DNA of 64,000 nucleotides from Flavobacteriales bacterium (lineage in GTDB: Bacteria > Bacteroidota > Bacteroidia > Flavobacteriales_D > Crocinitomicaceae), in assembly GCA_947470515.1 (NCBI GenBank), contig CANITF010000004.1:1-64000 (forward strand), in the 5' to 3' direction. Shown here one piece after another: positions 2,768 through 61,430 of this stretch. The position numbers and the translations under genes were made by a program. The notes below the pieces were generated by a model, which was given only the letters and a program-made list of their open reading frames with translations, searched no databases and had not been told where the DNA came from. Positions within the stretch are counted from its first letter, which is position 1. Each line of letters begins with the position of its first letter.

Positions 2768-5008
2768 ATGAATAAAATGCTAAAAATTAACACCTTAATT
2801 GGTTTTCTTTTCCTTACTAGTTTGCTTTTTGGACAAACGGCTAAATTAAAAAAGGCGGATGCCAATTACGCAAATCTATCCTATGTATTTGCTGCTTCAA
2901 GCTATGAAAAATTAGTTGGAACTGAAGTTGATAGTCCTGCAATGAAAGCAAAACTTGCCCATTCGCATTATCAAATTGGGAATATGAAACGAGCAGAAGA
3001 ATTTTATACGTTAGCTTTTTCATCATCGCAAGATCTTTCGTTGGAACATTATTTTTATTTCGCTCAAACGTTAAAGCAAAATGGTAAATACGCTGAAAGT
3101 GATAAATGGATGACGCAATTTCATGCAAAAGAAATCAAAGATCAACGCGGAGTTTTATTTGCGAAAGACCAATCTTATTTATCAAAAATACTTGGGGAAC
3201 AAGCACATTTTACCATCGGAAATATTTCCTTTAATTCAGCAAAGTGTGATTTTGGAGGATATGACTTTCAGAAAGGTGAAACACTTTATTTTATTTCATC
3301 TAGAAGAAAAGGATTAATTCGAAGAACGTGGACATGGAATGCGGATAACTTTTTAGATATCTATACACGTAAAATTTCATCAGAAAAAGAAGTGGTTAAA
3401 CCATTCTCAAAAAAAGTAAATTCAAACTTCCATGAAGGTCCTATTTGTTTTTCTGCAGATGAAAGCCGTGTCTATTTTACGCGGAATAATATTGCCAAAG
3501 GGAAACTTCGAAAAGATCAAAAAGGGATTCAGAATTTGAAACTCTACTTTGCCGAAGTGGATGAAAAGGGAAATTGGAGCAATTCATTTGAATTAAAGCT
3601 CAACTCAAAAGAATATTCTGTTGGCCATCCTACAATTTCAAAAAACAGTAAAACACTTTATTTTGTTTCTGATATGCCAGGTGGATTTGGTGGAGCAGAT
3701 ATTTATAAAGCAGAAATTCTAGCTGATGGAAACCTTGGTCAACCAATCAATTTAGGAAATAAAATAAATACGGAAGGTCAGGAAATGTTCCCTTGGCTTT
3801 CTAAAGAAGGACAATTGTTTTTTGCGTCGGATGGATTAATTGGACTTGGAGGATTAGATATTTTTGTGGCCGATCTTTCTAAAGATGGATTAGTCAATGC
3901 AATTCAACATGCAGGAATCGGAATAAATAGTGAAAGAGATGATTTTGCTTTTATTTTAAGTGGAGATCATAAAACGGGTTATTTTTCTTCTAACAGAGAT
4001 GGCGGTCAAGGTGACGATGATATTTATTCTTTTGAGATGATTAAACCGTTCCTTTTTAGTTTGACATTGAAAGGAATTGTCACAGCAGCAAATACAAATG
4101 CTATTTTACCTAATTCAACAGTTACATTGCTTAATTCGAAAGGAGATATTGTTGCAAGAGTAATTGCTGACAAAAATGGGATGTATAGCTTTACTATTGA
4201 ACCAGAAGAAAACTACACCTTAGTATTCAATGATTCAAAATTCGAAGAAAAATCATATTCCGTAACTGCTAAAAATGCAACTTCAGGAGTTTTAGTACAA
4301 GATGCTCAACTGGATTTAAAACCTGATTATGGACTTCTCTGTTTAATCACAGATTCTAAATCTAAAAGTCCTTTGGAAAATGTACAAGTTACGATTAAGG
4401 ATAAAATAACGGGGAAAGTTCTTATTGATCAGTTAACAGCTGCATCAGGGGATATTCAAAAAGTTCTTGAAAATGCTAAAAATGGTGATGTAATTAATTA
4501 TGAAATTACACTTGAAAAAGACGGATATTTGTTAAAGACGCTCCTTTTTAATCATACAATTACGCAAGCAGGCATGATTAATATTCATGAAAATTTAGAT
4601 CTTTCTATGTCTAAATTGGACGTAGGAATGGACCTCGCAACTTTAATAGATATCAAGCCAATTTATTTTGACCTTGGCAAGTATGTTATTCGGAAAGATG
4701 CTTCCTTAGAGTTGGATAAAATTGTAAAAGTCATGAATGATTATCCAGCAATGAAAATTGAATTAGGTTCTCATACAGATTGTCGTTCTAGCATTGCTTT
4801 TAACGATAAATTGTCCGCTAATCGTGCAAAAGCATCTGCCGATTATATTAAATCACGTATACAAAATCCAGAAAGAATCTATGGAAAAGGGTATGGTGAG
4901 TCAAAATTGAAGATTGATTGTCCTTGTGAAGGAACCGTAAAATCTTCTTGTTCAGAAGAAGAGCACCAACAAAATAGACGTACAGAATTTGTTATTCTGA
5001 AAATGTAA
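2768..5008 (+). CDS. OmpA-family protein with TPR and PD40 propeller (PorE-like)
   Basis: 746 residues with a signal peptide ending near LLFGQ. Domains in order: TPR-like helices (~20-130), a PD40/WD40-like propeller (~155-430, with strands such as LYFVSDMPGGFGGADIY and GYFSSNRDGG), two carboxypeptidase-regulatory-like modules (~435-610), and a C-terminal OmpA peptidoglycan-binding domain (~630-746: IYFDLGKYVIRKDA, GSHTDCR, NDKLSANRAKA). This architecture matches PorE-type T9SS proteins and the OmpA partners that follow PorP/SprF genes. The likely role is a periplasmic link between the PorP/SprF barrel or its substrate and the cell wall; that role is inferred. A second in-frame ATG lies at 2777. 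Confidence 0.88.
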   Translation: MNKMLKINTLIGFLFLTSLLFGQTAKLKKADANYANLSYVFAASSYEKLVGTEVDSPAMKAKLAHSHYQIGNMKRAEEFYTLAFSSSQDLSLEHYFYFAQTLKQNGKYAESDKWMTQFHAKEIKDQRGVLFAKDQSYLSKILGEQAHFTIGNISFNSAKCDFGGYDFQKGETLYFISSRRKGLIRRTWTWNADNFLDIYTRKISSEKEVVKPFSKKVNSNFHEGPICFSADESRVYFTRNNIAKGKLRKDQKGIQNLKLYFAEVDEKGNWSNSFELKLNSKEYSVGHPTISKNSKTLYFVSDMPGGFGGADIYKAEILADGNLGQPINLGNKINTEGQEMFPWLSKEGQLFFASDGLIGLGGLDIFVADLSKDGLVNAIQHAGIGINSERDDFAFILSGDHKTGYFSSNRDGGQGDDDIYSFEMIKPFLFSLTLKGIVTAANTNAILPNSTVTLLNSKGDIVARVIADKNGMYSFTIEPEENYTLVFNDSKFEEKSYSVTAKNATSGVLVQDAQLDLKPDYGLLCLITDSKSKSPLENVQVTIKDKITGKVLIDQLTAASGDIQKVLENAKNGDVINYEITLEKDGYLLKTLLFNHTITQAGMINIHENLDLSMSKLDVGMDLATLIDIKPIYFDLGKYVIRKDASLELDKIVKVMNDYPAMKIELGSHTDCRSSIAFNDKLSANRAKASADYIKSRIQNPERIYGKGYGESKLKIDCPCEGTVKSSCSEEEHQQNRRTEFVILKM

Positions 5009-21029: not shown

Positions 21030-21834
21030 CTATTTCACTTTTATTGGAACAATGGTTCTTTTGTTTTCATGTGCAAAGCAACTGACCGATGTGCAACATG
21101 AAAAATTGCCGCGTAAAAAAACACAAGATTTAATTGCTACGATGGACAGTTTATCCCTTATTAAACCAACGTTTTTTTATACTAAAATTGCTACTGAATT
21201 TTCGGATACAAACCGTAATATTAGTTTCAAAACTTCTATTCGAATGGTGAAAGATAGTGCCATAAATACAACAATTACTTACGCTAAAATTCCAATTATC
21301 AATTCAATTATTACTTCTGATACCGTAAAAGTTATCAATAAAAGAGATAAATGTTACATCATTCAAAGTTTGAGTTATATCAAAGACAATTTTGGGATTG
21401 ATTTTAATTATCGCAACTTGGAAGAACTGATTTTGGGAATGCCGTTGGATTATGACACAACACAAAAGTACTTTCAAATGCACGATCCGTATAATTATAT
21501 TATTTCTTCCCACAAAAAAAGAGAGATGAAACGATTGGATAGAAATGGCAGGCAAATTGAGCGAAATGATATTTTGGTTAAATATTTCCTAACGGATGAT
21601 GCAACAAATTTGAAGGCCATGTTTATTGAAAGTCCATCCGATTCAACAACGATTCAAGTTGATTATTTGACGAGGGAATTGGTTCAAGGATATAATCTAC
21701 CAAAAGACGTATTTATAAAAATTACTTCACCACGAAATCAGATTCAAATCAACTTAACATACGATAAAGCTGAAATAGATCAGCCCCAACCATTGTTTTT
21801 TGTAATACCTGAAGGTTATGAAAAGTGCGAATAA
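21013..21834 (+). CDS. DUF4292 family lipoprotein
   Basis: 273 residues from ATG 21013, which lies inside the end of the TPR gene (17-bp overlap). A TTG at 20983 would add a Lys-rich tail but weaken the signal peptide. The lipobox LLFSCAKQ places it as an envelope lipoprotein. The body is beta-rich, with an LGMPLDYD segment and a LolA/LolB-like look, and ends in PQPLFFVIPEGYEKCE. DUF4292 has no proven activity; between a TPR lipoprotein and an EnvC-like protein it is often found in this phylum. It may carry or sense lipid or lipoprotein cargo (inference). Confidence 0.75.
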   Translation: MNRCINYFTFIGTMVLLFSCAKQLTDVQHEKLPRKKTQDLIATMDSLSLIKPTFFYTKIATEFSDTNRNISFKTSIRMVKDSAINTTITYAKIPIINSIITSDTVKVINKRDKCYIIQSLSYIKDNFGIDFNYRNLEELILGMPLDYDTTQKYFQMHDPYNYIISSHKKREMKRLDRNGRQIERNDILVKYFLTDDATNLKAMFIESPSDSTTIQVDYLTRELVQGYNLPKDVFIKITSPRNQIQINLTYDKAEIDQPQPLFFVIPEGYEKCE

Positions 21835-37174: not shown

Positions 37175-38485
37175 TCACTTCTTTCTAAAGAAAATACGAA
37201 TCGGCACACCACAAAAATCAAACTTTTCTCTTAAACGATTTTCAAGAAAACGTCGGTAAGAATCTGGAATGTATTGTGGTAAATTACAGAAAAACGCGAA
37301 TGCTGGTGAGTACATTGGCAATTGTTGTACATACTTGATACGAATATATTTTCCTTTCAATGCTGGGGGAGGAGTTGCTTGAATAATTTCTAACATCACC
37401 TCATTCAATTTGGATGTTGCAATTTTCTTGGTTCTATTTTCATGAACCATCATTGTTGCTTCTAACGCTTTGTGAATACGTTGCTTTGTCAATGTAGACG
37501 TAAAAATAATCGGCACATCATTAAAAGGCGCCAATTCTAGACGTAATTTAGCTTCGTATTCATTCATGGTGTTTTGATCTTTTTCAACCAAATCCCATTT
37601 ATTTACGAGAACAACACATCCTTTTGAGTTTTTCTCAATGATATAATAAATATGTAAATCTTGTTTTTGTAATCCTTCTTCTGCATCAATCATGAAAATA
37701 CAAACATCCGCATCTTCTATTGTTCTAACTGATCGCAAAACAGAATAATATTCAATATCTTCTTGCACTTTTGCTTTCTTTCGAATCCCAGCAGTATCAA
37801 TTAATAGGAAGTCAAATCCAAAGGAATTGAAACGTGTATTGATTGAATCACGCGTTGTGCCTGAAATACTTGTTACGATATTTCTTTCTTCACCAGTCAA
37901 GGCATTTACCAACGATGATTTACCAACATTTGGACGACCAACAATAGCAATTCTAGGTAAGTGATCTTTCTCGTTTACAGATTCATCTTCAATGTTGAAA
38001 TGTTTCACAACTTCATCAAGAATTTCACCTGTTCCGGTGCCATTTGTAGCAGATAAATCAAAAACTGGTCCTAGCCCAAAAGAATAAAATTCAGCAGATA
38101 ACCCAATTCGCTTATTACTATCAACTTTGTTGGCAACAATAAGTATAGGTTTCTTTGATTTTCGGAGCATCGAAGCCACCGTATCATCTAAATCTACGAT
38201 TCCAGTTGTCACGTCCACCATAAATAAAATTACAGTAGCTTCCTCGATAGCAATAACGACTTGTTTGCGGATTTCAGCTTCAAAAATATCATCAGATCCA
38301 TGCACGTAACCTCCAGTATCTATCACTGAAAATTGCGCCCCATTCCATTCTCCTTTTCCGTACAGACGGTCACGTGTTACGCCACTAATTTCTTTTACGA
38401 TTGCATCACGAGATTCTGTCAAGCGATTAAACAACGTTGATTTCCCAACATTTGGACGACCTACTATTGCAACTATATTACCCAT
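37175..38485 (-). CDS. der: Ribosome assembly GTPase Der (EngA)
   Basis: 436 residues with two tandem G domains, the signature of Der. First P-loop [11 protein letters not shown] (~8-18) and second [11 protein letters not shown] (~180-190). Both have NKxD (NKVD; NKWD) and DTAG-type switch II motifs. A C-terminal KH-like domain (~350-436) ends [10 protein letters not shown]. It is essential for 50S subunit maturation. It lies upstream of ppx, with a 150-bp gap, and downstream of era on the same strand. Confidence 0.97.
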
Positions 38486-38616
38486 ACTTTTTTAGAACTG
38501 AGAACCGAGAACCGAGAACCGAGATGGTTTTAGATTCTGAACTCTATTTTTATCAATAATTTTTAGAATAGGATTATCCCTGGTTTACAATACACTTAAC
38601 TTCTAACATCGACTAG

Positions 38617-41403: not shown

Positions 41404-41580
41404 AATAGTTTTTGTTTATTAACTATGACAAAAGAACTTATCCCATTTCGATTTTTTTCGAAATAGCAAAGGGGTTATGAAATTATCAATGAATATAGTT
41501 AAAGAGAACTATGCGTAAATACGTAGTAACGGGTTTTTTGTAGACTAAAGATTCAAACTTTAGATTCTTTTGAGGAAGGA

Positions 41581-41610
41581 TTTAGTGCAATTTAGTGCAA
41601 TTTAGTGCAA
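41581..41610. repeat. Three 10-bp tandem repeats after a stop codon
   Basis: TTTAGTGCAA occurs three times head-to-tail directly next to the stop codon of the TlpA-like gene (41611). The 10-bp period is one DNA helical turn. Slippage could change the copy number. No function is evident. Confidence 0.85.
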
Positions 41611-42420
41611 TTATTTTATCAATGCTTCAATTGTACTTTCAATTTCCTTCAATGTGTTTGGGCCTAAACCTACAGTAGAATATGTAACGATAGAATTCTT
41701 ATCAATTATCAGATGGGTTGGAAAAGCTTTGACAGTGTAACTATTTGCTATCTCTCCACTACCTGCAATTATATTATAGTTAAAGGTTTTTGTTTTCAGA
41801 AAACTCTCGATTTTTGATTTGTCATTATTAGCAAATCCAAGAAATACGACATCCTCACCTTTAAATTTATCTACCAATTTATTAAGTTCAGGCATTTCCA
41901 TTACACAAGGTTTACATTCAACAAACCAAAAATTTATTACAATCACTTTTCCCTTTAAACTCTCAAGCGAGTAACTATTTCCTAAAATGTCTGTTACTGA
42001 AAATGTTAGGGCTTCTTTTCCCAACATTTCATTTTCATTTTGCATCTTATCTGGCATATTGGCTTGAGCTTCCATCATAAATTTTTTCTCCTCTTCTGAA
42101 GCCTTACGCAGAACAAATGCTCTTACAATTTTATCACTATCGACATATGGTTCTGGCATATAATCACCTGACATCATAGCCTCCATAAAATCACTTTCTT
42201 TCAACAAAGTTAGATTTTCAAAATACATAGGCGTTGTCATTGGATTTAACATCATGGGTGTATTCGGATCAATGTCATCGGGACCAGCTTTCTTCAGTCC
42301 TTCAAGGGGATTTAATTGTTTCTCCTTGACAGATTTTTTATGTGAACTATTCTTTTGAGCAGTTACATTGCTTGAAAACAGAGCAATTATTAGTGTTATA
42401 ATCCAGATTTTCGTTGTCAT
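41611..42420 (-). CDS. TlpA/ResA-like thioredoxin-family protein
   Basis: 269 residues with a signal peptide (WIITLIIALFSSNVTAQ). The N-terminal ~120 residues are Met/Pro-rich with no recognised domain (MMLNPMTTPMYFE; MEAMMSGDYMPEP). The C-terminal thioredoxin/TlpA fold (~130-269) has the redox site C-K-P-C in FWFVECKPCVMEMPELN and the cis-Pro region AFPTHLIIDK. It is exported, so a periplasmic or surface disulfide reductase role is likely. Its own promoter is unclear. It is the terminal gene of the leftward group between SprB-repeat gene and tRNAs. Confidence 0.85.
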   Translation of the reverse strand: MTTKIWIITLIIALFSSNVTAQKNSSHKKSVKEKQLNPLEGLKKAGPDDIDPNTPMMLNPMTTPMYFENLTLLKESDFMEAMMSGDYMPEPYVDSDKIVRAFVLRKASEEEKKFMMEAQANMPDKMQNENEMLGKEALTFSVTDILGNSYSLESLKGKVIVINFWFVECKPCVMEMPELNKLVDKFKGEDVVFLGFANNDKSKIESFLKTKTFNYNIIAGSGEIANSYTVKAFPTHLIIDKNSIVTYSTVGLGPNTLKEIESTIEALIK

Positions 42421-47418: not shown

Positions 47419-47468
47419 GATTCGTGATTTGGAATTCGTGTTTTATTCCGAATTCCAAATCACGAATC
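47419..47468. terminator. 20-bp perfect hairpin between convergent genes
   Basis: The arms 47419-47438 (beginning GATTCGTGATTTGG) and 47449-47468 are fully complementary, around a 10-nt loop. It lies between the GLPGLI gene (+) and nfu (-), 6 bp from the latter's stop. It lacks a U-run, so it may be a bidirectional terminator or a dispersed GAATT-type repeat. Confidence 0.65.
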
Positions 47469-47473
47469 ACGAA

Positions 47474-48073
47474 TCACTCATTCTCCGCAACGACTTCAGT
47501 TACTTCAGGTAAATGAGATTTTAATAAATTCTCTATTCCACCTTTCAATGTCATTGTTGAAGAAGGACAACCTGCACATGAACCGCGCATTACGACGGTT
47601 ACAACGCCGTTATCATAACCTCTGAAGTCAATTGCTCCACCATCGTTTTCAACTGCTGGACGTACATATTCATCCAACAAACTTTTGATTGCATCATCGT
47701 ATTCTGATGGCAAATATTCCTTTTTAGGTTTGTCTTCTGTTGCCTCAATTACTGTTTTAGGAGCTGGCATTTGAATCAAAACATCTTTGCCGTCAGTGAT
47801 CCATCCTTTGACAAATTCACGTAATTCCATTGAAATGAAATCCCAAGGAACGTTATCCGTTTTTGTAATTGTAATGAAATTCGCTGCCATGAAAACGTTC
47901 TTTACAAAAGGGAAATTAAATAACTCTTCAGCCATAGGAGAAAATCCTTTTGCATCTGTCATAGAAGAAAATTCTACTGAGTCTCCTGTAAGAAGTAAAT
48001 ATTTATTCGCGACAAATTTCATCGTCGACGGATTTGGTGTCATTTCTGCGTAAACTGTTACAGGTACATTCAT
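47474..48073 (-). CDS. nfuA: Nfu-type iron-sulfur scaffold/carrier protein
   Basis: 199 residues. The N-terminal Nfu_N domain (MTPNPSTMKFVANKYLL, ~10-95) is followed by a linker and a C-terminal NifU domain with C-A-G-C (CAGCPSSTMTLKGGIENLL, ~165-185). The two Cys coordinate a 4Fe-4S cluster between two subunits for delivery to target proteins. It is cytoplasmic and divergently arranged with the HYC_CC_PP gene, sharing an 89-bp intergenic region. Confidence 0.93.
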   Translation of the reverse strand: MNVPVTVYAEMTPNPSTMKFVANKYLLLTGDSVEFSSMTDAKGFSPMAEELFNFPFVKNVFMAANFITITKTDNVPWDFISMELREFVKGWITDGKDVLIQMPAPKTVIEATEDKPKKEYLPSEYDDAIKSLLDEYVRPAVENDGGAIDFRGYDNGVVTVVMRGSCAGCPSSTMTLKGGIENLLKSHLPEVTEVVAENE

Positions 48074-53525: not shown

Positions 53526-56500
53526 ATGAAAAAAAATCTTTGTGCTTTCGTATTACTTTTTGTTGTTTCAATTAGTTCTGCTCAAGAAATTATAAAAATT
53601 GAAGGGAAAGAACTTTTCGGAGACCTCAAGGCCCGTCAAATTGGCCCTGCTTTAATGAGTGGACGTGTTTCCGACATTGAAGGACATCCGTCTAATTCTC
53701 GAACAATTTATATTGGTACAGCCGGTGGAGGTGTATGGAGATCTCAAGATGGAGGGGTAATTTTCAATTCAATATTTGATGAACATTGTCAATCAATTGG
53801 TGCTGTAGCGGTTGATCCTAACGATCCAGATAACTCATTGTGGGTTGGTACAGGAGAAGTTTGGACGCGAAACAGTGTTTCAATTGGGGACGGAATCTAC
53901 AAAACGAATGACGGTGGAAAGAACTGGCAAAAAATGGGTCTCGAAAAGACTGAAAGAATTAGTGCTGTTGAAATTCATCCGAAAGACAAAAACACTGTTT
54001 ATGTTGGAGCAATGGGAGCATTGTGGGGAGATAATGAAGATAGAGGTGTCTTTAAAACAATTGATGGAGGAAAGACTTGGACGAAAGTTTTGTATTTAAA
54101 TGCTTTTACAGGTTGTTCGGATCTAGTAATGGATCCAACTAATCCAGAAATACTTTATGCATCATTTTGGGAATATAGAAGAACAGCTTGGTCTTTTAAT
54201 TCTGGTGGATTGAATAGTTCCTTACACAAAAGTATCGATGGAGGAAAAACATGGGTGAAAATTCACACTGGTTTTCCAAAAGGAGTTTTAGGTAGAATTG
54301 CTGTTACTGTAGCTCCTTCAAATCCTTCGATTCTTTATGCTGTTGTTGAAGCAGAAAAAGATACTGAAAAAGGATTGTACCGTTCAGATGATGCTGGTGT
54401 TACTTGGAAACATTTAAATGGTGATTTTGGATTAACCGTTCGTCCATTTTATTTTTCACGAATTGTTGTGGACCCAAAAGATCCTAATACTGTTGTGAAG
54501 GCAGGTTTGTCAGGTTCAATTAGTCATGATGGTGGTAAGACCTTTAAAGGTCTTGGTATGATGCACTCAGACATTCATGATATATGGTTTGATGTGAAGG
54601 ATTCAGACAAAATGTTTGTGGCAACTGATGGTGGGTTGTATCGATCTTTGAATGGTGGAACGACAATGGAAATCATCGAAAATTTGCCGATTTGTATGTT
54701 CTATCATGTAAGTGTTGACAATCAAACGCCGTATAATATTTACGGAGGATTACAAGATAATGGATCTTGGTTCGGTCCATCGGCTAGTCCTGGAGGAATT
54801 GAAGCGCGTGATTGGGAATCAATCGGTTATGGTGATGGTTTTAGAGTTTATCCCCATCCTACAAATCCAAAAATCATGTATTCTGAAATGCAAGGAGCTG
54901 AAGGAGTTTGGAGATATGACAGCGAGAAAAAGCAAGTAAAAACAGTTAAACCTTTTCCTGTAACAGGGGATCCAAAATACCGTTTCAACTGGAATGCTGC
55001 TATAACAACAAGCCAGCATCAACCGGATCGTTTATATATTGGAAGTCAGTTTCTTCACAAGTCGGACGACATGGGAAATAATTGGAAGAAAATGTCACCA
55101 GATCTAACAACAAACAATCCTGCGAAACAACAACAAGTTCAATCAGGAGGTTTGTCTGCAGACAATTCAGGTGCAGAAAATCATTGTACAATTTTCACAA
55201 TCGCGGAATCACCGTTAGATGAAAATATTATTTGGATTGGAACGGATGATGGTAATGTGCAGCTCACAAAAGACGGTGGAAAGACGTGGTCTAATTTAAC
55301 ACTGAACATCAAAGGACTTCCTGTCAACACATGGTGTTACCATATTGAAGCAAGTTCATTTGATAAAGCAACGGCATACGCTGTTTTTGATGGCCATACT
55401 AAAAATGATAAAAACGCTTATGTTTATAAAACGATGGACAATGGACTTACTTGGAAATCTATTGTAACTGCCGATATCACAAGCTTTGCACGAAATATTC
55501 AGGAGGATTATAAAAATCCGAATTTGCTTTTCCTTGGGACGGAATTAGGTTTGTTTATTACCATTGATGGTGGATTAAGCTGGTCTAAATTTACGAATGG
55601 AGTTCCTGCTGCTGCGGTTCATTATATTGAATTGCACCCAAAGACGAATGATTTGATATTGGGAACACATGGTCGCGGAATCATAATCATTGATGACATT
55701 AGTCCTTTGCGCGAATTGAATGCTGAAGTATTGGCTAAACCGCTTTATTTTTTCCCATCCAAAACATATGAAATGGATGAGACAAGTACATTTGGAGGAG
55801 CAAGTAGTGAAACCCAATTCATAGGTTCAAATCCATCTTCATCGGCACAAATTAAATATTACTTATCTAAAAGACATACGTTTGGAAAAATGAGTCTGGA
55901 TATTTATGATAGCAATGACAAGTGGATCACAACAATTTCACCAGGAAAACAAAAAGGAATCAACATTGTGGAGTGGGGATGCAATTCAATGGCACCAAAA
56001 GTTGCTGCAGGAAAGACAATTGCTGGAAGCGCAATGTTTTCACCTCGTGTTCCAGCTGGAAAATATAAGGTTGTCATTACAAAAGGGTCAGAGAAATTTG
56101 AAAGTTCTCTAGAATTGAAATATCCTACAAATACTGTTTTCACTCCTGAGGAAAGAAAACTTCAAGAAGCTACAACAAAAACGTTGTATGACATGACAGA
56201 AGAGTTGGCTTACGTGGTTTACGAAATGGATGAGTACATTCTTCATTCGGAGAAAGTAATGAAGGAAAATGCAAGTTTAAAAAAGCAAGCATTGAAACTA
56301 AATACGGATCTGAATGCATTAAAGGATGTTTTAGTTGTAACCAAAGGTGATAATTATGTTGGTGCAGGTGAGCCTCAATTGAGAGAAAAAATTGGGGATC
56401 TATACAGCACAATTGGATCTTATTATGGTGTCCCTTCAGTTTCTCAATTGGAAACAATGAAAATGTTACAAGATAAACTAGCTGATGGGAAAAAGAAATT

Positions 56501-56609
56501 TCAACTTATAAAAGATGCCCAAATTGGCAAATACAAAGTAGCAACTGAAAAAGCAGGTATTACTTATGTTGTATTGAAGTCGTTTGAAGAATTTGTAAAG
56601 AAAAATTAA
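53526..56609 (+). CDS. Secreted sortilin/BNR-type beta-propeller protein
   Basis: 1027 residues with a signal peptide (VLLFVVSISSAQ). Residues ~40-700 hold repeated Asp-boxes of BNR/sortilin propellers: SQDGGV, NDGGKNW, DGGKTW (three times), DAGVTW. The last ~300 residues are partly helical (EERKLQEATTKTLYDMTEEL, near residue 880). There is no T9SS tail, so it is probably periplasmic. Similar proteins in Bacteroidota are annotated as glycosyl hydrolases, but no catalytic residue can be pointed to here. Function remains open. Confidence 0.85.
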   Translation: MKKNLCAFVLLFVVSISSAQEIIKIEGKELFGDLKARQIGPALMSGRVSDIEGHPSNSRTIYIGTAGGGVWRSQDGGVIFNSIFDEHCQSIGAVAVDPNDPDNSLWVGTGEVWTRNSVSIGDGIYKTNDGGKNWQKMGLEKTERISAVEIHPKDKNTVYVGAMGALWGDNEDRGVFKTIDGGKTWTKVLYLNAFTGCSDLVMDPTNPEILYASFWEYRRTAWSFNSGGLNSSLHKSIDGGKTWVKIHTGFPKGVLGRIAVTVAPSNPSILYAVVEAEKDTEKGLYRSDDAGVTWKHLNGDFGLTVRPFYFSRIVVDPKDPNTVVKAGLSGSISHDGGKTFKGLGMMHSDIHDIWFDVKDSDKMFVATDGGLYRSLNGGTTMEIIENLPICMFYHVSVDNQTPYNIYGGLQDNGSWFGPSASPGGIEARDWESIGYGDGFRVYPHPTNPKIMYSEMQGAEGVWRYDSEKKQVKTVKPFPVTGDPKYRFNWNAAITTSQHQPDRLYIGSQFLHKSDDMGNNWKKMSPDLTTNNPAKQQQVQSGGLSADNSGAENHCTIFTIAESPLDENIIWIGTDDGNVQLTKDGGKTWSNLTLNIKGLPVNTWCYHIEASSFDKATAYAVFDGHTKNDKNAYVYKTMDNGLTWKSIVTADITSFARNIQEDYKNPNLLFLGTELGLFITIDGGLSWSKFTNGVPAAAVHYIELHPKTNDLILGTHGRGIIIIDDISPLRELNAEVLAKPLYFFPSKTYEMDETSTFGGASSETQFIGSNPSSSAQIKYYLSKRHTFGKMSLDIYDSNDKWITTISPGKQKGINIVEWGCNSMAPKVAAGKTIAGSAMFSPRVPAGKYKVVITKGSEKFESSLELKYPTNTVFTPEERKLQEATTKTLYDMTEELAYVVYEMDEYILHSEKVMKENASLKKQALKLNTDLNALKDVLVVTKGDNYVGAGEPQLREKIGDLYSTIGSYYGVPSVSQLETMKMLQDKLADGKKKFQLIKDAQIGKYKVATEKAGITYVVLKSFEEFVKKN

Positions 56610-56628: not shown

Positions 56629-56653
56629 AAAGGCTCCAAATGGAGCCTTTTTT
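56629..56653 (+). terminator. Rho-independent terminator after the propeller gene
   Basis: 9-bp stem AAAGGCTCC/GGAGCCTTT (56629-56637, 56642-56650) with a 4-nt loop, then TTTA. Confidence 0.9.
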
Positions 56654-56724
56654 ATGGTGTTAATTTGATAAATTTTTGAATTATCCAATAAATCAATTAC
56701 ATTAGCTGATAACTGTAACCACTT

Positions 56725-56796
56725 ATGATTAATAAAATTCCAATATTAGTGCTATGTTTCATTGTTTCATTGTTTCATTGTTTCATTGTTTCATAA
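56725..56796 (+). other. Out-of-frame signal-peptide leader of the subtilase
   Basis: ATG 56725 opens 23 codons (begins MINKIPILVLCFIVSLFH), a classic signal peptide with one early Lys and a hydrophobic core, then TAA 56794. The core is written by the 8-bp repeats. It is in a different frame (1) from the protease (2), so as sequenced it makes only a short peptide. Confidence 0.75.
56756..56794 (+). repeat. 8-bp simple repeat (GTTTCATT x4.9), candidate phase-variation tract
   Basis: GTTTCATT occurs at 56756, 56764, 56772 and 56780, with GTTTCAT at 56788. Because 8 is not a multiple of 3, each unit gained or lost shifts the reading frame. All three frames are open through the tract. With three or six copies the ATG at 56725 joins the protease frame. 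Confidence 0.95.
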
Positions 56797-59269
56797 CAAT
56801 ATAATTTCCCAAGAATCAAAAAGTCAAATAATTGTAAAATTCAATTATTCGTATTTGAATTTTGATGAAATAAATGATATAAACAGTTTAGTTCTGCCTT
56901 TTAAATCAGTTTTGAATGACCGTTCAAAAGAACAACTTAAAAATCTAGAACTGTTATATCCAGGAATTTCGAATTATCAAATTACCAAAATATTCCCCTT
57001 TTTAAGAACCACAGATACAGTTTCCATTTCCCGTTTAGGAGAAAAAATTACAATACCTCCATTTTGGGCAACTTTCACGATGACAGTTCCACCTCATATT
57101 GATGTTGCTAAATTAATGAGAGTTTTAGATAATTTCAATCCGTTAATCGAATATTGCCATTATAATTTCCCAGCTTATACTGCTAGTCCGACTACACCGA
57201 GTGACACGTTATATGACAAACAAATTTCATTGAATGGTTCAGCATTGCATCCAAATGCTGGAATAAATATTGAAAATGCATGGACGATTGAAACTGGAGA
57301 GCCCTTCGTAAAAGTAGGTGTACACGATTCTGGAATTGACACATTGCATCCTGATATAGATGTCGTATTTGGGGGAGCTTATCTTGAGCCTGATAATAGT
57401 GTCAATTTCGAATGGGGAGAAGACACAAAGGGTCACGGAACTCCAGTAGCTGGTATAATTGGAGCAAAAAGGGACAATGTTACAGGTATTGCAGGTATAG
57501 CTGGCGGAGATACAATTCCAGGTTCTGGCTGTTCATTATTCGATTTACGGGTCAATTTTTATAATAGTAATGTTGCTTCATTTATTTGTGCAACTGTTGT
57601 TGATGCTGCACGCATGGTAAATACTTATTGGGATTATCCTGGTGAAGAATCGTTAATTGATTACTATGGTCCCAATCCATATTTTAACCATACACCAGGT
57701 TTTGGTATTAATGTCGGAAATCATTCGTATATCATTAAGACTGATGGAATTCCTCAAGATCCAACTAGTGGCACAGGTGAAGAAACAAAATCAATAACAA
57801 AAGAGAACAGTGATACTATTGTTGCCTTTTCACCAACTTGTACACTTTGTCGTGAAGCATATTTATTTTCATTAAAAAATGGTGTAATAAATGTTGTTTG
57901 CAGAGGAAATAGTCAGCATTTTTCACCAAGTTTGGACCCAACAATAATAGACAATGTTTACCCTCAATCGTTCCCTGATAATTGGCTCATTTCTGTAGGT
58001 GCTTCTGGACACGATGGTTATACAGTTCAAAATGGATTAAACCAAAGTCTTCTGGAAGAACAAGGTGCTTATTGGTCTATGTATGGCGGAAATATGGATT
58101 TAATTGCACCTGGTTCGGATTCAATTGTTTACACATTGAGTATGGTTAACCCAGTGACAGAGCCTTACCCTTATGAAAAATTTAATGGAACTTCAGCTGC
58201 TGCTCCTCATGTAACAGGTGTTGTTGCATTGTTACTAAGTCATTACAACAAAGATTGCTATACCAAAAGAAATCTTTCTGTGGAAGATATTGAATATATT
58301 TTGGAACACTCAGCCACCAATTTATATGAACCAGGCTATGATGACACAACGGGTTGGGGGAGGCTCGATGCCTACAAAGCATTGCAAATGATTGAAAATC
58401 CAACCAAGCAAATCATTCATCCTGACAGTTTAATTAGTTCGGTTATTGTTAGTAGAGATACAATTGCACTTTCGTATCAAGATGCCTTTGTTGCTGATGG
58501 GTGGGGGCCGATATCTAGTACAATGCCATTAGAAAACAATAAATATTATCAAGTTGAACGCGTTCTGGTTCAAAATACGTATTCTTTTGCTGAATACATG
58601 TTATCAAGCACAACCTTAAATGATGTGTGGCTCCGCCCAAGTGCCAGTAATTCACTTGATTTTTATAATGATACAAGTTCTTACTTAACTGGTCCAGGTG
58701 TTGGCATTTTAGAATATATTTTTGATGCATTTGACTACATGCCCTTTGAAGAAATGGATTCTGTTGATACGATATTGTTTCAAGTGAAAACAAAAGGATT
58801 TTATTACCATTTTATTTCTAGATATGATGAAGCTTATTTCCCGACCATTTTTATTGACACTAATATACTTATCGATACATGGCTTCCTTTGGACCCTATT
58901 TCTGACACAGCAAAAATGCTTTTTTCAATTTATATTACGGATACTACATTAACATCCATTTATGATTTCCCTTGTACTTCAGATAATCCTTTGTATGATG
59001 ATAATTATGATTTAGGTTTGCAGGATTTGGCTAAAACAAACTTTATCTTATATCCTAACCCTTCGAATGAATCAATAACAATAAAAGGAGTTGAAAATCA
59101 AGTAATTTCTAAAGTTGAAATTTTTGATTTGAATGGGAAAATCCTTTATTCAAAATATCCGAATGTCAAACAGCTGAATATTGACATTTCTAATTATCAA
59201 CAAGGTGCTTATTTTGTAAAATGCTCCGATGAGAATACTAGTAGAACCCTTAAATTAATGAAATTATGA
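56762..59269 (+). CDS. Secreted subtilase with T9SS type A sorting domain (phase-OFF as sequenced)
   Basis: 835 codons from TTG 56762 (arbitrary; no ATG is in frame until deep inside the protein). The subtilisin S8 triad is complete: D189 (VHDSGID), H225 (GHGTPVAG) and S478 (NGTSAAAPHVTG). An N-terminal ~150-residue propeptide-like region precedes. Residues ~760-835 form a Por-secretion-tail type A domain (NFILYPNPSNESI, KVEIFDLNGK, YQQGAYFVKC), so the enzyme should cross the outer membrane by T9SS. The natural start is most likely ATG 56725, separated from this frame by the repeat tract. The stop overlaps the next ATG (ATGA). Confidence 0.88.
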   Translation: MFHCFIVSLFHNNIISQESKSQIIVKFNYSYLNFDEINDINSLVLPFKSVLNDRSKEQLKNLELLYPGISNYQITKIFPFLRTTDTVSISRLGEKITIPPFWATFTMTVPPHIDVAKLMRVLDNFNPLIEYCHYNFPAYTASPTTPSDTLYDKQISLNGSALHPNAGINIENAWTIETGEPFVKVGVHDSGIDTLHPDIDVVFGGAYLEPDNSVNFEWGEDTKGHGTPVAGIIGAKRDNVTGIAGIAGGDTIPGSGCSLFDLRVNFYNSNVASFICATVVDAARMVNTYWDYPGEESLIDYYGPNPYFNHTPGFGINVGNHSYIIKTDGIPQDPTSGTGEETKSITKENSDTIVAFSPTCTLCREAYLFSLKNGVINVVCRGNSQHFSPSLDPTIIDNVYPQSFPDNWLISVGASGHDGYTVQNGLNQSLLEEQGAYWSMYGGNMDLIAPGSDSIVYTLSMVNPVTEPYPYEKFNGTSAAAPHVTGVVALLLSHYNKDCYTKRNLSVEDIEYILEHSATNLYEPGYDDTTGWGRLDAYKALQMIENPTKQIIHPDSLISSVIVSRDTIALSYQDAFVADGWGPISSTMPLENNKYYQVERVLVQNTYSFAEYMLSSTTLNDVWLRPSASNSLDFYNDTSSYLTGPGVGILEYIFDAFDYMPFEEMDSVDTILFQVKTKGFYYHFISRYDEAYFPTIFIDTNILIDTWLPLDPISDTAKMLFSIYITDTTLTSIYDFPCTSDNPLYDDNYDLGLQDLAKTNFILYPNPSNESITIKGVENQVISKVEIFDLNGKILYSKYPNVKQLNIDISNYQQGAYFVKCSDENTSRTLKLMKL

Positions 59270-60486
59270 GAACTTCGCAATTACTAATTGTCATTGCTTT
59301 ATCTTGTTTAAGTACAGGGTTTACTCAAACATGGCAATCAATCAATAAAGTTGGCTCGTTTGAAACATCACCCAACCGCAGTTTTCAAATAAACCGATAC
59401 ACAAATGATTTATGGCTGATTCAGGATACGAAGGTGGCAGTAATAGAAAACGACGGTACTATCCGAAATTTTGCTGATGCTGATTTTGGCATACTTTGGC
59501 CCAATGATAGATTACAATTTGCATTTACACCAACAGATATTTATTACAACATCAATTTATATGGTTTCCATTCTTTTACAGGATACACTTCAACGCTTAT
59601 TGATGCAGGTTTTGAATCTTATCTTAATATGACAAGTAATCTTGATACGATATATGTAACAATGGCAAATTTGGGTGGATTTAAGAAATTCTATAATGGA
59701 ACGGTTGAAGCATATAATAAAAACTTCACAAAAATTGATGCAAAAAATGCATTTTTTTATGGTAATAATGGTGGAACAGGTATATATCAATACTTTCAAA
59801 CGACAAATACAATAAACAACCTGAATTCTGATCCAAATTATTTATTATGTATTTACAACGACACCAAGTTTTCTAGAAATACAGACACGTTTTATGTTGG
59901 AAGCACACAAGGAATAAGTTTCGCGTATAACTATGATTTTTTAGATACCATCACACCCAATAATACGTTCAACATGCCAAGTGCTAATGTGTTGGAAATG
60001 GAATTTGATGCTGATGATAGTTTGTGGGCTGTTTTTGGAGATGTGAATGGTGATGCTTTTGCATTGGCAAAATTGGAAGGTGATACATGGACCAATATTT
60101 ATGATGCTTCAAATAGTCCGATTATTTTCTCCTCTTTTTTTGGTTTAGAAATTGACACCTTAGGGAATCTTTGGGTTGCCGACCAACAATATTTGCACAC
60201 CCTTTTAAACCCAAATAGTCCGGGATGGCTGTCTTTGTTGGAGAATGAAAAGGCGATTAGTTTTTCAATAACACCTAATCCTTCAGCAGATTTTATTTCT
60301 GTAAAAAGTGAGACGATGATAGATTTGATTGAAATTGTTGATTTACAGGGAAGGAAAGTTCTTTCAACGGATTATCATTCTTTCAATCCAACTGTTAACG
60401 TGGTTGATTTGAAAGAAGGAAGTTATTTTATAAAAGTCGTTTCAGGAAACAATGTTGAATTTCAGCAATTTGTAAAGAAAAATTAG
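59266..60486 (+). CDS. Secreted protein with T9SS type A sorting domain
   Basis: 406 residues with a signal peptide (LIVIALSCLSTGFTQ). The middle has propeller-like strands (NDLWLIQDTKVAVIENDG, DDSLWAVFGDVNGD, LGNLWVADQQYL). The C-terminal ~75 residues are a Por-type tail (FSITPNPSADFISVK, IEIVDLQGRKVLS, KEGSYFIKVVSG). It overlaps the subtilase stop by ATGA, so it is probably translated by coupling and may be reduced when the protease is phase-OFF. No enzymatic motif is seen; it may be a partner or a substrate-binding protein. Confidence 0.82.
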   Translation: MRTSQLLIVIALSCLSTGFTQTWQSINKVGSFETSPNRSFQINRYTNDLWLIQDTKVAVIENDGTIRNFADADFGILWPNDRLQFAFTPTDIYYNINLYGFHSFTGYTSTLIDAGFESYLNMTSNLDTIYVTMANLGGFKKFYNGTVEAYNKNFTKIDAKNAFFYGNNGGTGIYQYFQTTNTINNLNSDPNYLLCIYNDTKFSRNTDTFYVGSTQGISFAYNYDFLDTITPNNTFNMPSANVLEMEFDADDSLWAVFGDVNGDAFALAKLEGDTWTNIYDASNSPIIFSSFFGLEIDTLGNLWVADQQYLHTLLNPNSPGWLSLLENEKAISFSITPNPSADFISVKSETMIDLIEIVDLQGRKVLSTDYHSFNPTVNVVDLKEGSYFIKVVSGNNVEFQQFVKKN

Positions 60487-60505
60487 TCACAAAATATATT
60501 TTAAC

Positions 60506-60532
60506 AAAAGGCTCTTTTTAAAGGAGCCTTTT
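60506..60532. terminator. Hairpin terminator between convergent genes
   Basis: 9-bp stem AAAAGGCTC/GAGCCTTTT (60506-60514, 60524-60532) with a 9-nt loop and T-run on the + side. It lies 46 bp from the phosphatase stop. Confidence 0.8.
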
Positions 60533-60578
60533 GTATTTATATGAGTGTTAAATCATCAAACATAAAAATTCAAATCAA

Positions 60579-61430
60579 TCATATTCTTACCCCTATCAAA
60601 CAAACGTCATCGATTTGCTCTTGGTTTCCTTTCCAATTGTTAAACGACAATTCCAATTCTTTTTTCTGTTTATCAAAGGCAAAACCATCTAGTGATTGCA
60701 ATAAATTTCTGAATCGTTTTCGGTTGAATTTTTTAACATTATCACCTCCGAATTGATCGGTATAGCCATCCGTAAACAAATAGAATTGATCCCCTTCAAC
60801 CAAGGAAAAATGAATCGTCTCGAAATTTTTCTCTCCATCGGAACTGTAACCAATTGCATCAGCACCTTTTTTGAATTCCACCAATTCTCCATCACGTACC
60901 AAAATTAAAGGACGACCTGCACCACAAAAAGACCCTGTTTTTTTGCGCAAATTGAATTTACAAAAAACAATATCCATACCATCCTTCTGTGTTCCTTCCG
61001 TCAAGTTATCGTTGAATAAACTTACCAGTTCGTGGTCTAAAATTCTCATGATGAGCGCAGGATCTGAAACTCCATCTAAACGAATTATTTGGCGTAATAA
61101 TGTTGTTCCAGCGATATTCACCAAAGCACCCGGAACGCCGTGACCCGTGCAATCTCCAACTGCAAAATAGACGTCATCGTTGTGTTGGAACGTCCAATAG
61201 AAGTCACCACTTACAACATCTTTTGGTTGAAAAAGCACGAACGCGTCATTAAATATATTTTGAAGCACACGTTGATTTGGTAAAATAGAATGTTGTAAAC
61301 TGCCAGCATATCGGATGCTTTCTTGCATTTCAGCAGATTTTTCCTCTAAAAATGCAATACGTTGCAAAAGTTCATTTTGAGTGTATTCAACTGTTGATAC
61401 ACCATCTTCTTGTAAGATCAATGTTTCCAT
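60579..61430 (-). CDS. SpoIIE-type PP2C protein phosphatase
   Basis: 283 residues. An N-terminal ~40-residue coiled segment (NELLQRIAFLEEKSAEMQES) precedes the SpoIIE/RsbU phosphatase domain. Metal-binding Asp are seen in VSGDFYW, AVGDCTGHGVPGALV and, near the end, LFTDGYTDQFGG and QIDDVCLIGV. No receiver, GAF or membrane domain is present, so it is a soluble regulator, probably of a partner-switching or kinase pathway. No anti-sigma or STAS gene is adjacent. Confidence 0.9.
   Translation of the reverse strand: METLILQEDGVSTVEYTQNELLQRIAFLEEKSAEMQESIRYAGSLQHSILPNQRVLQNIFNDAFVLFQPKDVVSGDFYWTFQHNDDVYFAVGDCTGHGVPGALVNIAGTTLLRQIIRLDGVSDPALIMRILDHELVSLFNDNLTEGTQKDGMDIVFCKFNLRKKTGSFCGAGRPLILVRDGELVEFKKGADAIGYSSDGEKNFETIHFSLVEGDQFYLFTDGYTDQFGGDNVKKFNRKRFRNLLQSLDGFAFDKQKKELELSFNNWKGNQEQIDDVCLIGVRI

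Follow-up and report, generated by a model that had tools for sequence, protein, structure and literature searches.

A frame-shifting octamer array in the signal-peptide coding sequence of a T9SS-secreted subtilase: a candidate three-phase contingency locus in a flavobacterium

Most known contingency loci driven by repeats come from host-adapted pathogens, and phase variation in Bacteroides and other Bacteroidota is known to proceed through invertible promoters. Invertible promoters belong to the same phylum as the locus described here and likewise vary surface functions, but they work by recombinase-driven inversion and not by repeat slippage. In the opa genes of Neisseria, CTCTT pentamer repeats lie inside the leader-peptide coding sequence (PMC3745409). 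Haemophilus influenzae carries octanucleotide SSRs, for example ATTATTTG and GCATCATC, and ATTATTTG varies from 1 to 6 copies between strains (PMC2651432).

The locus that we analysed lies in the window, a stretch of 64,000 nucleotides from a Flavobacteriales bacterium, and resembles each of these repeat systems in part. As in Neisseria opa, a non-triplet repeat sits in a leader coding sequence and its unit number sets the frame of an exported or surface protein; the repeat codes for part of the signal peptide, and an upstream ATG joins the protein at some copy numbers (ATG1 at 3k copies, ATG2 at 3k+1). It differs from opa in having an octamer instead of a pentamer, a T9SS protease instead of an adhesin and a single locus, and in having a second ATG and TTG starts in the tract, which are predicted from the sequence to give three graded phases. 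The product is a peptidase S8 with a T9SS tail, so the locus is opa-like in its working but is not an opa gene. With the H. influenzae SSRs it shares an eight-base unit and a similar range of copy numbers, whereas those repeats lie upstream of genes, in the promoter or 5' region, and the array here is inside the coding leader. The protein itself is built like other T9SS-secreted subtilases of Bacteroidota, with an S8 domain, a type A Por_Secre_tail and a predicted Sec signal peptide. A literature search, mostly of papers outside subscription, found no repeat switch in the leader of a T9SS cargo, and such a switch is apparently unreported before.

The array and the genes around it are arranged as follows.
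56725-56796, plus strand: leader open reading frame from ATG1, MINKIPILVLCFIVSLFHCFIVS and then a stop (TAA 56794-56796); only 3, 6 or 9 copies bring it into the protease frame
56754-56804, plus strand: frame of ATG2, MFHCFIVSLFHCFITI and then a stop (TAA 56802-56804); 4, 7 or 10 copies bring it into the protease frame
56755-56794, plus strand: tandem array (TGTTTCAT)x5, 40 bp and 100% perfect, within the signal-peptide coding sequence
56762-59269, plus strand: subtilase (peptidase S8) open reading frame with a C-terminal T9SS type A sorting domain (PF00082, PF18962, TIGR04183)
59266-60486, plus strand: partner T9SS cargo protein of 406 amino acids with a Por_Secre_tail, its start overlapping the protease stop (ATGA)

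Along the leader, ATG1 (56725) is followed by ATG2 (56754), the array and then AAC AAT ATA ATT TCC CAA, which opens the subtilase frame; the TG of ATG2 forms the first letters of the first repeat unit. The preliminary description had placed an 8-bp repeat with five copies in the signal-peptide coding region, in a register that reads GTTTCATT four times complete and then GTTTCAT at 56756-56794. This part of it stands, as the array is perfect and longer than any simulated run: the period-8 perfect run observed is 40 bp, against a maximum of 21 bp in 60 third-order Markov sequences of 64 kb. A chance origin of the array is excluded. The doubled TGTTTCAT word is unique to this locus across the 2.99-Mb genome, and the tripled word occurs in 3 species among 26 genomes of the genus, each time at the protease locus only. 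We surveyed repeats in 463 kb of the host genome, about 400 kb of it in additional stretches, and this array is the sole one at the start of a long open reading frame with a unit length not divisible by 3. The remaining non-triplet arrays in the survey are short, lie away from the starts of long open reading frames and are mostly heptamers not spanned by a long open frame. Arrays of 6- and 9-base units, in contrast to these, lie within long open reading frames. The tract reads the same cyclic peptide in all frames; a hydrophobic peptide in every frame was considered as evidence of selection and rejected, since any unit whose length is not a multiple of 3 gives this by arithmetic.

Other repeats were seen in this genome. 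A heptamer array of AGAACCG, with 3.6 perfect copies, occupies 38500-38524, about 15 bp upstream of the start of a minus-strand gene (37175-38485), and is not present at the corresponding place in the nearest sister genome. A ten-base array, ATTTAGTGCA x3.3, lies at 41580-41612 at the 3' end of a minus-strand open reading frame (41611-42420), and none is found at the aligned place in the same sister. There are many short heptamer arrays of 3-5 copies, with words such as AAACTAC, TAAACTA and CACTCCT and no long open frame across, at sites including L076 (G000:C5) 3532-3632, L083 (G000:C9:20001-40000; contig 21258-21394) and window 47458-47477. They recall intergenic heptamers reported from other bacteria (PMC4679880). 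At 504-1475 a 189-bp coding repeat is present five times, with units about 90% identical and rich in Asp-containing motifs; these are likely calcium-binding surface repeats.

The protein downstream of the array is by sequence an intact subtilase with a T9SS tail. Both the peptidase S8 domain and the T9SS tail exceed their curated cut-offs (for the sorting domain, TIGR04183 53 bits against a cut-off of 23 and PF18962 52 bits against 27), and the Asp, His and Ser catalytic motifs DSGID, GHGTPVAG and GTSAAAPH align to a solved subtilase. The host genome encodes the T9SS translocon SprA (TIGR04189, 2436 bits, at C2). Coupling of the partner gene to the protease is plausible because of the ATGA overlap, because the partner is itself T9SS cargo and because the pair is conserved in all orthologous loci read.

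Comparison with relatives, which the preliminary description had proposed, was run on sister species and gave three related arrays: five copies in the window, four in G074 and four of a variant in G137. Each number comes from one assembly per species, for three different species within a genus sample of 26 genomes, one per species. G074 (L042) is the nearest orthologue, with a protein 91-93% identical to that of the window; the protein of G137 (L043) is 82-83% identical, and every unit of its array after the first is CGTTTCAT instead of TGTTTCAT. The leaders of all three align base for base apart from the array. In a 10.5-kb alignment of the window with G074, the only indels outside a mosaic segment described below are one exact repeat unit and two changes of 1 bp. 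Because the difference between 4 and 5 copies is nearly the sole indel, the tract varies in length by whole units, and the open reading frame after it is kept. That frame is open in all three species, with a pairwise dN/dS of 0.13-0.21. The dN/dS of the window branch was considered as proof of translation at five copies and rejected, since most differences between the window and G074 fall in the mosaic segment.

In G137 an identical base change is found at all three internal unit boundaries, which would most simply be explained by expansion from one changed unit; the homogenised CGTTTCAT units therefore point to turnover of the tract. Together these comparisons, which are between species and not between cells of one population, indicate whole-unit turnover in the tract. 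The locus combines a perfect non-triplet tandem repeat in coding sequence with whole-unit copy variation between related genomes that changes the frame, as is expected of an SSR-mediated contingency locus. In the more distant orthologues (L044, L045, L017-L019) the signal peptides are ordinary and free of repeats, and all end just before glutamine. In the window the predicted Sec cleavage site, IIS/QES, lies just after the tract, and Q is at +1 in all orthologues read, as the Bacteroidetes Q-rule expects after Sec cleavage (PMC5837995). Since the signal peptides of distant orthologues end before Q at the place of IIS/QES, the tract falls in the signal peptide's hydrophobic core. Its origin is most likely in the lineage that these three species share.

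The preliminary description had taken ATG1 as the start of a good signal peptide, with the subtilase in another frame and no ATG near it, and had calculated that 3 or 6 copies would fuse the two. We find the same: the ATG1 frame closes at its TAA, near the beginning of the protease frame there are TTG starts only and no ATG at the window's five copies, and a copy-by-copy frame computation gives the same fusions. Overlooked were the TTG at 56762 and ATG2, which lies in the third frame and is joined to the protease when there are 4 or 7 copies. At 5 or 8 copies TTG codons alone are in frame, and TTG 56762 at 5 copies gives exactly the same peptide as ATG2 at 4 copies. Because every added unit displaces the frame by 8 bases, the state recurs every three units. 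The earlier picture of a two-state switch, set to OFF in the window, is therefore right about the missing in-frame ATG but has to give way to three phases with a TTG start left. Since TTG starts remain at 3k+2 copies, one of them giving the short signal peptide, we infer that the window is in the poorest phase, in which output would be lowest rather than proven null.

The two ATGs would provide the protease with different signal peptides. The ATG1 form is a predicted signal peptide with a Lys, a strong hydrophobic core and the S/Q site; it has 23 residues when there are 3 copies and 31 when there are 6. The ATG2 form at 4 copies is MFHCFIVSLFHNNIIS followed by Q, which is shorter and, in the window sequence, free of basic residues; this short signal peptide has an uncharged n-region in both the window and G074 and a single Arg in G137. 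On the Kyte-Doolittle scale over 10 residues, the hydrophobic maximum of the ATG1 form is 3.3 and that of the short form 2.1, compared to 2.4-3.4 for eight neighbouring or orthologous signal peptides. By reading, a full N-terminal Sec signal peptide would thus be present at 3k copies, and the window would have only the short, TTG-started form. All three species retain an ATG in the ATG1 frame (window ATGATT, G074 ATGATG, G137 ATTATG). G074 has two adjacent ATGs there, and each has been lost once, one in the window and the other in G137. That every species keeps at least one of the two, in three genomes, which are few, favours ATG1 as a functional start.

The sequence upstream of ATG1 contains two further elements.
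56629-56650, strand unassigned: hairpin with a T tail resembling an intrinsic terminator, after the upstream gene 53526-56609; the scan listed it on the minus strand, and a T run is also found on the plus strand
56675-56705, plus strand: putative Bacteroidota-type promoter, TTTG (56675-56678), 19 nt and TACATTAG (56698-56705), read by eye

The Bacteroidota promoter consensus is TTTG/TANNTTTG. The putative promoter ends about 20 bases before ATG1, and the predicted 5'UTR to ATG1 is about 13 nt. The stretch TTATCC...GTAAC does not vary between the window, G074 and G137, and in G137 the spacing is the same despite differing sequence just upstream. A sigma-70 scan of the leader found no promoter on the plus strand. 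Because the terminator-like hairpin separates the upstream gene from the protease, the protease pair is likely a separate transcription unit. In G137 the conserved upstream gene and the protease are separated by a gene of 1168 amino acids on the other strand (L063 11708-15214), whose product has a signal peptide and a T9SS-like C terminus; this gene is absent in the window and G074.

Our preferred explanation, to which we give a probability of about 0.55, is that this is an SSR-mediated translational phase-variation (contingency) locus, a three-phase device and not a proven ON/OFF switch, in which gain or loss of copies probably decides whether and how well the protease is made and exported. 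Replication slippage in the octamer array would alter the copy number by whole units, and with each unit moving the frame by 8 bases the protease would cycle, reversibly within a population, through three translation states. At 3k copies, ATG1 would start a protein with the full Sec signal peptide (MINKIPILVLCFIVSLFH...NNIIS/Q). At 3k+1 copies, the state of both sisters, ATG2 would start a protein with the short signal peptide. At 3k+2 copies, the state of the window, no ATG is in frame, translation from ATG1 would end after 23 codons, and initiation at TTG alone would give the lowest output. The exported protein would lose its signal peptide at S/Q and leave through the T9SS, and the ATGA-overlapping partner would follow the state of the protease through coupling or polarity. 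A contingency locus had also been the reading of the preliminary description; its variable-length, frame-shifting tract in a hydrophobic core and its intact genes are kept here, but its simple ON/OFF is not.

The strongest alternative, somewhat doubtful in our view, is a slow and effectively fixed repeat, whose length changes over evolutionary time with no switching in the population. The short signal peptide MFHCFIVSLFHNNIIS would then work, the real start would be ATG2 at 4 copies or TTG at 5, and the window's extra unit would only have swapped ATG for TTG. The two sisters, at 4 copies, have ATG2 in frame, each assembly has one copy number, and the 3k phase, in which ATG1 would be used, is found in none of the three species that carry the array. 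As TTG 56762 gives the sisters' short signal peptide, there may be little functional difference between 4 and 5 copies. The tract is also short. Known fast switches usually have more than five units, and with five octamer units the switching rate here may be low. However, the short peptide of the window and G074 lacks a charged n-region and its hydrophobic maximum falls below both the ATG1 form and the range of the eight comparison peptides, and the homogenised units of G137 imply turnover of the tract.

A recent loss of function, in which the fifth unit is a frameshift that silenced the gene in the window lineage and left a young pseudogene, is unlikely. The protease is found in the same genus and family with a patchy distribution in the genus (4 of 26 genomes), and the G119 orthologue (L044 4950-7529) carries a stop within the gene, so loss of the gene is tolerated; the window, moreover, has no in-frame ATG. 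Yet its 824 codons and the partner are otherwise undamaged, only one base after 58054 differs from the intact sister, and the TTG start is still present. An assembly or sequencing error in the repeat, with a true copy number of 4 or 6, is very improbable: the assembly is a draft of 58 contigs and repeats are error-prone, but 40 bp is well within a short read, the copies are perfect and a neighbouring species independently has an array of another length.

The protease gene of the window is also mosaic, in a way that stands outside the evidence for the switch.
57275-58053, plus strand: mosaic segment in the protease domain, divergent from both sisters at about 76% identity and covering the first part of the S8 domain

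The flanks of this segment are 97-100% identical to G074. By codon, identity between the window and G074 is 97-99% over 1-160, 69-78% over 161-360 and 88-94% over 361-440. From 58054 to 60611 (2.56 kb, including the whole partner gene) one base differs from G074, compared to about 97% identity just upstream. The mosaic looks like a recent allelic exchange between species or a chimeric assembly, and it would fit a gene on which diversifying pressure acts. A fuller version of the contingency reading, a three-phase export switch that is strong from ATG1 at 3k copies, weak from ATG2 at 3k+1 and near-silent from TTG at 3k+2, combined with recombination that exchanges part of the protease domain, is one that we put forward tentatively.

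If the contingency reading is true, an environmental member of the Bacteroidota would have a secreted protease, a public good, under the control of a contingency locus. It would extend the mechanism to secreted enzymes in an environmental flavobacterium, where bet-hedging or cheating over a public good may be the driver. Automatic annotation that chooses ATG2 or TTG as the start can hide such a switch.
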